A stretch of DNA of 64,000 bases from Maricaulis salignorans. Lineage in GTDB: Bacteria > Pseudomonadota > Alphaproteobacteria > Caulobacterales > Aquidulcibacteraceae. The translations under genes were made by a program, and so were the position numbers. Location: assembly GCA_945891505.1 (NCBI GenBank), contig CAMDDL010000004.1:1-64000 (forward strand). Reading direction: 5' to 3'. The notes beneath the pieces were generated by a model that saw only the letters and a program-made list of their open reading frames with translations, was not told where the DNA came from and ran no database searches. Below, piece by piece: positions 19,786 to 22,308 of the stretch; the first letter of the stretch is position 1, and the number at the start of each line of letters is the position of its first letter.

Positions 19786-20145
19786 TTAAGCTGCCATGAC
19801 CTTTTCCACTTCAGCGACCAGTTCTCGCAAGTGGAAGGGTTTAGACAGGACTTTTGCCTTCGAGGGGGCTTGGTTGGCAGGATTGAGAGCCACTGCTGCA
19901 AAGCCTGTGATGAAGACGATCTTCATGGCCGGGTCTACTTCGGCTGCCCGTCGCGCAAGTTCGACACCATCGACACCTGGCATCACGATGTCTGTCAGAA
20001 GCAAATCGAAGCCCATTGCGTTCAGGGCTTCAAGCGCCTGATCCCCATCTGGGAAGTCTGCAACAATATGGCCTGCTTTGTTAAGCGCAGCAGCAAGGAA
20101 CGTCCGCAAGGAATCGTCATCTTCCGCTAAGAGAATTCTCGCCAT
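19786..20145 (-). CDS. cpdR: Single-domain response regulator, CpdR type
   Basis: This 119-residue protein consists only of a receiver domain. It has the acidic pair D10/D11 (LAEDDD), phospho-acceptor D52 in LLLTDIVMPG, a Thr in FITGF and the lysine of LSKPF. In Caulobacter and relatives, CpdR in its unphosphorylated state directs ClpXP to cell-cycle substrates such as CtrA. Length, MARILLAEDD opening and a neighbouring N-formylglutamate amidohydrolase gene support CpdR over other stand-alone receivers, but orthology is inferred. A GGAG lies about 10 bases before the ATG. Confidence 0.75.
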   Translation of the reverse strand: MARILLAEDDDSLRTFLAAALNKAGHIVADFPDGDQALEALNAMGFDLLLTDIVMPGVDGVELARRAAEVDPAMKIVFITGFAAVALNPANQAPSKAKVLSKPFHLRELVAEVEKVMAA

Positions 20146-20320: not shown

Positions 20321-21232
20321 ATGCAGGAAATGAATACGGCGACAGAGTCTCGGCGGGTTGATCATGACGGTGCGTCGGAGATGCGGCCCCCTGCTTATCG
20401 TTTGCTGCGCCCATTGGTTGGTCGTTCTGGCGTGATTGTTTGTTGCCCGCATTCTGGCCGCTTCTATCCTGATGACCTGTTGCGCAGCTCAAAACTGGAT
20501 AGGCTTGCGTTGAGGCGTTCAGAGGATGCCTTTGTGGACGAGCTCATGGCGGCTAGCCCAGAACTTGGCGCTTCTCTGCTGCTCGCGGATTTCGCTCGCG
20601 CCTATGTGGATTTGAATCGTAGTCCGGATGAACTTGATCCGGATCTTATTCTTGATCTTCCAGCCGGTGACCGACGCGTGCCTTCGCCGCGGGTTTTGGC
20701 GGGGTTGGGCGTAGTTCCCCGCACTGTTGGCGACGGCGTCGAGATTTATGCGAGTCGTTTGTCCTATGCTGCCGCCCACGCCCGACTGAAAGAGGTTTAT
20801 GAGCCGTGGCACGCTGCAATCGAGGGTTTGATTGAGACCGAAAAGCAGGCCGTTGGCCAGTCTGTTGTGTTGGATTGCCATTCCATGCCCGCCTCGGCGT
20901 CTGGTCTGCCCGAAAATGACATTGTCTTGGGGGATCGTTTCGGTGCCTCCTGCGCGCCCATCTATATGGCTGAGGCCTTTACGTTTCTTAGGTCCAAAGG
21001 TCTGCGTGTGGCACGCAATAACCCCTATGCTGGTGGATATGCCACCGAGCGTTATGGAAGACCGGCTCATAATCAACATAGTTTGCAGATTGAGATTAAT
21101 CGGTCTCTTTATATGGTTGAGGGCGCGATGAGCAAACGAAGCTCGTTCGCGCACGTGGCGGAGATATTGTCAGGGCTTGTTGCGCGCATTGTCGAAATTG
21201 CTGAAGCAAAGGCACCGCGCCGCTCTAGGTGA
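20321..21232 (+). CDS. N-formylglutamate amidohydrolase
   Basis: This zinc hydrolase of the FGase family cleaves N-formylglutamate, or a related N-acyl amino acid, to release formate and glutamate. The metal-site motifs are VCCPHSGR near residue 41 of this start, the D/R pair in ARAYVDLNRSPDELD, VLDCHSMP, and the YAGGYATERYG and LQIEINRSLYM C-terminal motifs. The frame remains open upstream to about 20168, but only from a TTG. ATG codons at 20321 and 20330 give the normal 300-residue length. No complete histidine degradation (hut) cluster accompanies it, so a strict HutG role is not implied. Confidence 0.85.
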   Translation: MQEMNTATESRRVDHDGASEMRPPAYRLLRPLVGRSGVIVCCPHSGRFYPDDLLRSSKLDRLALRRSEDAFVDELMAASPELGASLLLADFARAYVDLNRSPDELDPDLILDLPAGDRRVPSPRVLAGLGVVPRTVGDGVEIYASRLSYAAAHARLKEVYEPWHAAIEGLIETEKQAVGQSVVLDCHSMPASASGLPENDIVLGDRFGASCAPIYMAEAFTFLRSKGLRVARNNPYAGGYATERYGRPAHNQHSLQIEINRSLYMVEGAMSKRSSFAHVAEILSGLVARIVEIAEAKAPRRSR

Positions 21233-21242
21233 GGCGGAGCAG

Positions 21243-21272
21243 AAAAAAGGGCCGGGCACGAGGCCCGGCCTT
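21243..21272 (-). terminator. Leftward Rho-independent terminator
   Basis: Read on the minus strand, GGCCGGGC and GCCCGGCC form a perfect 8-bp GC stem with a five-base loop, followed by six T (forward A-run 21243-21248). On the plus strand no T-run follows the stem, so the element is oriented against the upstream amidohydrolase gene and needs a leftward transcript to act on. Confidence 0.8.
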
Positions 21273-21430
21273 AGAGGTGTTTGGGAGGAAACGCCCAAAA
21301 AGGGCAGGGACGCCACGGCATCCATGAGCTTGTTTATCTCGCATCTGCAAAATTTTCAACGTTTTTTGCACTGGACGATTTCGAATTAGGATGATTCCGT
21401 GTGGTTTTAGACTAGAACTTCCTGAAAAAA
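21243..21430 (-). ncRNA. Candidate small RNA of about 190 nt with exposed CCUCCC loop
   Basis: A leftward promoter (TTGCAA, 17 bases, TATAAA) is followed about 190 bases later by a strong leftward intrinsic terminator, with no open reading frame of note between them. Near the 3' end the RNA can form a GUUU/AAAC stem presenting a CCUCCC loop (21279-21292), complementary to Shine-Dalgarno sequences. Alternative stems UUUGGG/CCCAAA and GCCC/GGGC compete for the same bases. A further GGAUGCC/GGCGUCC stem lies upstream of these. Exposed CCUCC loops are known in several alphaproteobacterial trans-acting small RNAs. Family membership is not established, and 6S RNA is not supported because the ends do not pair. 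Confidence 0.6.
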
Positions 21431-21436
21431 TTAGAT

Positions 21437-21465
21437 TTTATATATATTGCACTGCAGCATTGCAA
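21437..21465 (-). promoter_or_regulatory. Leftward sigma-70 promoter of the candidate small RNA
   Basis: On the minus strand the -35 box TTGCAA (21460-21465) and the -10 box TATAAA (21437-21442) are separated by the ideal 17 bases within a very AT-rich stretch. Transcription would start near 21430. Confidence 0.6.
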
Positions 21466-21588: not shown

Positions 21589-22308
21589 ATGCCGTATTTA
21601 GCGTTAGTTCGCCACGGACAGTCACAATGGAATCTTGAAAATCGGTTCACTGGGTGGATGGACGTGAATTTAACCGCGGAAGGTGAGGCGCAAGCCCGCA
21701 AGGCCGGCCAGCTTTTGAAGTCATCCGGTGTTGGTTTCTCACGGGCGTTTACGTCGCTGCAGACCCGGGCAATCCGGACGCTTTGGCTGGCGCTGGAGGA
21801 AATGGATTGCTGTTGGCTGCCTGAAGAGAAGAGCTGGTGTTTGAACGAGCGTCACTATGGCGCGCTCACCGGCCTAGATAAGGCCGAAACGATGGCGAAG
21901 CATGGCGAAGAACAAGTGCGCATTTGGCGGCGCTCCTATGATGTGCCGCCACCACCGCAACCAAAGTCTGATCCGTTCCATCCTATCCATGATCTGCGGT
22001 ATCAGCACGTTCCAGCTGGCGCTTTGCCGGACGGTGAGAGTTTGGCCATGACTTTGGCGCGCGTGTTGCCTTATTGGTCGGCGAGCATTGCGCCACATCT
22101 GAAGCAGGAGAGCCTCGTGATTTCGGCGCATGGAAACTCCCTGCGCGCCATTATCAAGCATGTGTTCGCGCTCGATGAGGATCAGATCATGGAAGTCGAG
22201 GTTCCTACAGGCAATCCGCTTTTGATTGAGCTAGACGGCGGCTTGAAGCCTATTTCGGCCAAATATCTCGACGCCAGCCGGGCACAGCCTTTGCCCGTCA
22301 TTGGATAA
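21589..22308 (+). CDS. gpmA: 2,3-bisphosphoglycerate-dependent phosphoglycerate mutase
   Basis: This glycolytic enzyme interconverts 3- and 2-phosphoglycerate. The 239-residue protein has the phosphohistidine motif LVRHGQSQWN (H9), the NERHYGALTGLDK segment and the second histidine in SAHGNSLRA. The frame is open 14 codons further upstream, but the ATG at 21589 gives the family N-terminus (MPYLALVRHG) and has AAGGA about 8 bases before it. The next gene begins 4 bases after its stop. Confidence 0.95.
   Translation: MPYLALVRHGQSQWNLENRFTGWMDVNLTAEGEAQARKAGQLLKSSGVGFSRAFTSLQTRAIRTLWLALEEMDCCWLPEEKSWCLNERHYGALTGLDKAETMAKHGEEQVRIWRRSYDVPPPPQPKSDPFHPIHDLRYQHVPAGALPDGESLAMTLARVLPYWSASIAPHLKQESLVISAHGNSLRAIIKHVFALDEDQIMEVEVPTGNPLLIELDGGLKPISAKYLDASRAQPLPVIG

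Follow-up and report, generated by a model that had tools for sequence, protein, structure and literature searches.

The founding description of the alphaR8 family of small RNAs is that of the suhB RNA motif (Corbino et al. 2005, PMC1273637). In Sinorhizobium meliloti the family is represented by MmgR (RF00519, alphar8), and the regulator PhaR, whose consensus is YGCR-N-YGCR, binds a box in the mmgR promoter whose end lies at -13, and thereby represses the gene (PMC12542648). In Caulobacter crescentus it is represented by SisA (alphaR8), on which the sponge RNA CrfA acts. SisA has been proven to repress a TonB receptor, and does so through the same core that characterizes the locus studied here, a core covered by nucleotides 33-45 of SisA; moreover, sisA lies beside an amidohydrolase gene, a linkage typical of the family (PMC12559287). 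Recent work has established that SisA manages the switch from feast to famine in Caulobacter, and the 2025 SisA/CrfA paper makes no mention of PhaR. Our literature search likewise found no report of PhaR control of alphaR8 in Caulobacterales, a cited phylogenetic study of the family being one place where promoter motifs may have been noted.

We analysed a window of 64,000 nucleotides (the whole stretch of DNA considered here), in which a preliminary description had proposed an unannotated leftward, trans-acting small RNA with an anti-Shine-Dalgarno element, located between an amidohydrolase gene and gpmA. The covariance-model search of Rfam that it suggested gave a single match above cut-off in the window: positions 21312-21234 of the minus strand match RF00519 (suhB/MmgR, alphaR8) over the full length of the model (1-77/77) with 61.1 bits, compared with a curated cut-off of 41 bits. 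The same model scores above its cut-off in 56 of 61 relatives (genomes of the genus, family and order). The leftward small RNA gene is real, and the core of the proposal is well supported by this family membership, but the RNA is a clear member of a widespread and already known alphaproteobacterial family (MmgR/SisA). We estimate at about 0.92 the probability that it is the alphaR8 orthologue, named MmgR in Sinorhizobium and SisA in Caulobacter, and that it would act through its anti-Shine-Dalgarno core; this figure covers the identity and the mode of action, and the control by PhaR discussed below is a separate step to which we give a clearly lower probability. Assignment to another family of anti-Shine-Dalgarno RNAs, AbcR/alphar15 or SorX, is very improbable. 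These RNAs likewise use unpaired CU-rich motifs, and the SorX model (RF02784) does match the window RNA with 37.6 bits, but this score lies below its cut-off of 46.6 bits, the match contains a 9-nt gap and RF00519 reaches 61.1 bits; the two CU-rich motifs and tandem genes that are the hallmarks of AbcR/alphar15 are replaced here by one core and a single gene at the locus. The linkage with the amidohydrolase gene also counts against both assignments.

Indeed, the neighbourhood is that of the family (Table 1). The convergent amidohydrolase gene, whose closest named relatives are records from Aquidulcibacter (85% identity) and Hyphomonadaceae (74-77%), ends 11 bp from the 3′ end of the small RNA. 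These relatives point to an Aquidulcibacter-type bacterium of the Caulobacterales as the source of the window. Where flanks of Caulobacterales copies were read, the small RNA gene mostly stands beside the amidohydrolase and cpdR genes.

Table 1. Features of the small RNA locus and its neighbours (window coordinates).
Feature	Position	Strand	Basis
Predicted mature alphaR8/MmgR/SisA-type sRNA, ~82 nt	21244..21325	-	RF00519 match, conservation, fold
Hairpin 1, GGAUGC-CGUG-GCGUCC, upstream of the Rfam model	21308..21323	-	Fold
Hairpin 2, UGCCC-UUUUU-GGGCG, weak hairpin typical of the family	21292..21306	-	Rfam model, fold
Single-stranded anti-Shine-Dalgarno core UUUCCUCCCA (family 10-mer UUUCCUCCCU)	21282..21291	-	Fold, alignment
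Rho-independent terminator	21243..21270	-	Stem 21270-21250, 8 G-C pairs, then CTTTTTT (C + 6 T)
Proximal promoter	21333..21359	-	-35 TTGAAA (21359-21354), -10-like GATAAA (21338-21333); consensus match
Proximal PhaR-like box TGCAGATGCG (YGCA-N2-TGCR), between -35 and -10	21340..21349	-	Motif match
Distal palindrome TTGCAATGCTGCAGTGCAA, PhaR-like core TGCAGTGCA, containing the previously proposed '-35'	21447..21465	.	Conservation
N-formylglutamate amidohydrolase gene, convergent with the sRNA	20321..21232	+	PF05013, 235.6 bits
gpmA (2,3-bisphosphoglycerate-dependent phosphoglycerate mutase), divergent from the sRNA	21589..22308	+	NF010713, 328.6 bits
cpdR response regulator gene, second conserved neighbour	19786..20145	-	NF046022, 188.7 bits

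We showed by sequence comparison that the predicted RNA, read leftward from the proximal promoter, carries a single-stranded UUUCCUCCCA core, preceded by two 5′ hairpins and followed by a terminator. RNA polymerase would start near 21325, a 5′ end that we infer (±3 nt) from the promoter and hairpin 1, and would end at 21243. Folding of this 82-mer (21325-21244) gives a z-score of -3.7, with none of 200 shuffles as stable. The hairpins were scored sequence by sequence in 53 relatives: two hairpins form in the 38 nt preceding the core in 52 of them, compared with 24% of shuffles. Since a column alignment of 35 relatives misaligns the hairpins, no covariation count was made on it; a compensatory change in hairpin 1 is nevertheless visible in one genome (G005), where GGACGC/GCGUCC becomes GAACGC/GCGUUC. 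Hairpin 2 is invariant across the genus except for variants in G002 and G005. The core begins at nucleotide 35 of the 82-nt RNA and agrees with the family 10-mer at nine of ten positions, the last base differing throughout Aquidulcibacter, and GUUUCCUCCC is invariant in the 35-sequence alignment. Its CCUCCC is unpaired in the fold, after the weak hairpin 2. The CCUCCC element announced near the 3′ end is therefore present and unpaired, but it belongs to the linker between hairpin 2 and the terminator and not to a hairpin loop; the several competing hairpins also announced find no support in the folding or in the hairpin scores. On the other hand, the minus-strand terminator is indeed a strong intrinsic one, and the minus strand of the segment holds no credible coding frame, both as initially noted.

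The start and the length of the RNA differ from those first proposed. The loci of nine genomes of the genus Aquidulcibacter were aligned in one orientation (MAFFT). The RNA block (21325-21244) is 92-95% identical across the nine genomes, above the neighbouring gpmA codons (79-89%), and the adjoining promoter block (21359-21326) is 81-85% identical. The distal palindrome with its AT-rich arm is 85-92% identical, whereas the 64 nt that separate it from the proximal promoter block are not conserved (46-50%). The preliminary description had read the string TTGCAA-N17-TATAAA at 21465-21437 as a promoter, with a 5′ end near 21430 and an RNA of 188 nt. This string does exist at that place and is conserved in most of the genus, and one could imagine it as a second promoter whose 188-nt RNA would perhaps be processed to the alphaR8 RNA. 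We consider this improbable and rejected the distal promoter with its long RNA: the first ~60 nt of such a transcript fall in the gapped segment of 46-50% identity, and the 188-mer is not unusually stable (z-score -1.3, not better than shuffles). Moreover, TTGCAA is one half of the palindromic, operator-like element TTGCAATGCTGCAGTGCAA, and the promoter adjoins the RNA in other genera. The conserved proximal promoter and the 5′ hairpin instead place the start near 21325, for a predicted length of ~82 nt. Conservation, initially expected for the promoter, the terminator and the loop, is thus verified for the terminator and the core. The distal string shows conservation as well, but an operator accounts for it better.

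Elsewhere in the home genome, a second alphaR8-like RNA was detected (G000:C14:58572-58651; L110), with 35 bits, below the Rfam cut-off. It has the core GUUUCCUCCCA, as in the window RNA, is conserved in the genus and is preceded by two TGCANNTGCGAG boxes 27 bp apart; we regard it as a genuine weaker paralog. A further RF00519 hit on contig C1 of this genome (29 bits) and similar weak hits were discarded, being plain terminators with no core. In another genome of the same order (G054), six RF00519 matches were found, five of them above cut-off: the family has expanded there.

An orthologue such as this RNA was to be expected, and the added value of this locus lies in its promoter. The proximal promoter is kept in the nine genomes of the genus, and throughout the order it occupies the same position relative to the RNA, most copies there reading CTTG(A/C) at -35. 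The box that it encloses between -35 and -10 resembles, with a spacer of two bases (N2), the PhaR (AniA) box found in the mmgR promoter, and order-wide this position is occupied by YGCR-N-YGCR or by the variant with two spacer bases. Of 56 alphaR8 promoters from Caulobacterales, 50 have a PhaR-like box within 55 bp, about one being expected from shuffles; the searched interval of the other six holds none. Taking one genome per genus, the box is present in 19 of 23 promoters (0.6 expected). As a negative control, the upstream regions of cpdR show no excess (4/38, for 3.4 expected), and a downstream flank shows a mild one (15/53, for 7.6 expected).

Genome-wide, the PhaR pattern taken literally from S. 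meliloti shows no enrichment (36 strand matches, compared with 46 for the reversed control), and the phasin promoters were therefore taken as the lineage's own reference. Phasin genes are classical targets of PhaR. Boxes are present in 48 of 53 phasin promoters, for 4.8 expected, and the box of the Aquidulcibacter phasin promoter is identical in type to that of the small RNA promoter, the two-base spacing of the half-sites being common to both operators in this genus. The pattern YGCANNTGCGARATA has 19 matches in the nine Aquidulcibacter genomes, compared with three for the reversed control, and these matches are chiefly the alphaR8 small RNA promoter and the phasin promoter. The distal palindrome, ~107 bp further upstream than the proximal box, is found in all nine genomes of the genus, in altered form in G005, and resembles AAATGCTGCGGTGCAGCATTT, a box upstream of a phasin gene.

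Several arrangements of these boxes were observed alongside. In all nine genomes of the genus (L081-L089), a tandem pair of PhaR-like boxes with a distance of exactly 21 bp precedes the Phasin_2 gene, and in many other genera of the family one N1 box and one N2 box, ~25-28 bp apart, stand before the phasin gene. In the home genome, the perfect PhaR-like palindrome AAATGCTGCGGTGCAGCATTT (G000:C80:4879-4899; L249) is situated ~95 bp ahead of a second phasin gene (PF05597), which has a PhaC gene nearby. The distal palindrome at 21447-21465 stands between the divergent small RNA and gpmA genes. Because of this position, PhaR might act on gpmA too; in the sister genus g13, the boxes on the gpmA side have another placement.

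Boxes common to the small RNA and phasin promoters, the presence of PhaR and PhaC genes and the precedent of S. meliloti mmgR together make it likely that PhaR, the sensor of stored carbon (polyhydroxybutyrate), controls the window RNA through the PhaR-like boxes. The PhaR gene was found in seven of the nine Aquidulcibacter genomes and PhaC in all nine; G001 and G006 have the box, PhaC and the phasin gene, but no PhaR (PF07879) was found in them, possibly because of assembly gaps. The PhaR site of S. meliloti mmgR occupies the same promoter position as the boxes in the window promoter. It is less probable, though worth keeping in mind, that the RNA is as described and the boxes belong to a regulator other than PhaR, or that the distal box serves gpmA. 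The N2-spaced box is indeed one base off the published S. meliloti spacing, and gpmA, too, has the distal box upstream of it; yet the same type of box precedes the Phasin_2 and Phasin genes, and in S. meliloti the site bound by PhaR in the mmgR promoter has the same position (PMC12542648). The new detail of this locus is a conserved PhaR-like promoter site that appears to be common to the small RNA gene and the phasin genes. We lean, with some reserve, towards control of the alphaR8 RNA by PhaR throughout Caulobacterales via an operator shared with the phasin genes, in which case the PhaR-to-MmgR circuit, until now known in Sinorhizobium alone, would be ancestral.

How the RNA might then act can be outlined from its predicted features. 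As a predicted Hfq-type small RNA it would bind Hfq, and its UUUCCUCCC core would pair with the ribosome-binding sites of target mRNAs and block their translation. The best single candidate target that we infer is a TonB-dependent receptor mRNA (TIGR01782; G000:C7:9502), with 11 paired bases: the perfect 11-nt complement of the core, UUUGGGAGGAA, covers its ribosome-binding site. Of the seven genomes compared, six have all 11 nt unchanged and one has retained ten, at least the TTGGGAGGAA part being common to all seven; the leader of this receptor gene is itself well conserved, which makes the conservation of the site weak evidence. As a class, TonB receptors are not better targets than other genes by duplex energy (p = 0.18 with the corrected gene filter; p = 0.56, also not significant, with a crude one), and the class was set aside, the individual candidates alone being retained. 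A CrfA-like sponge was sought by means of GGGAGGAAA: none of the 13 sites in the genome was recognized as a sponge, these being the antisense strands of the two small RNAs themselves, an RNase-P-like sequence, gene starts and coding sequence. Upstream of this, PhaR would repress the small RNA when stores are empty and would be titrated away by polyhydroxybutyrate granules, so that plentiful carbon would free the small RNA and the phasins together and further carbon uptake would be damped. If this is true, polyhydroxybutyrate stores would be coupled to the repression of TonB-dependent uptake by a SisA-type RNA. That PhaR-like boxes are conserved in the majority of alphaR8 promoters of Caulobacterales suggests a wiring of SisA to the carbon store of the cell, a link that is directly testable in Caulobacter.

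Finally, the locus can be set beside the described systems. SorX of Rhodobacter and AbcR of rhizobia are, like the window RNA, Hfq-type small RNAs with anti-Shine-Dalgarno motifs; the SorX model, however, stays below its cut-off on this RNA, and AbcR has two motifs and tandem copies. The suhB RNA motif of Agrobacterium shares with it a promoter, a short 5′ helix and an intrinsic terminator (Corbino et al. 2005, PMC1273637), but its neighbour there is suhB. With MmgR the window RNA shares a full-length covariance match, an unpaired CCUCCC core, a terminator and a promoter whose PhaR-like box overlaps the -10 element or lies immediately upstream of it. It differs from MmgR in that its core ends in CCCA-AAC instead of CCCU, the half-sites of its box are two bases apart rather than one and its upstream neighbour is gpmA. 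As for SisA, Caulobacter has four copies (SisA-D), whereas here there are one copy and one weaker paralog; the two systems nevertheless belong to the same order and have in common the amidohydrolase neighbour, a core at about nucleotide 35 and a plausible TonB receptor target.
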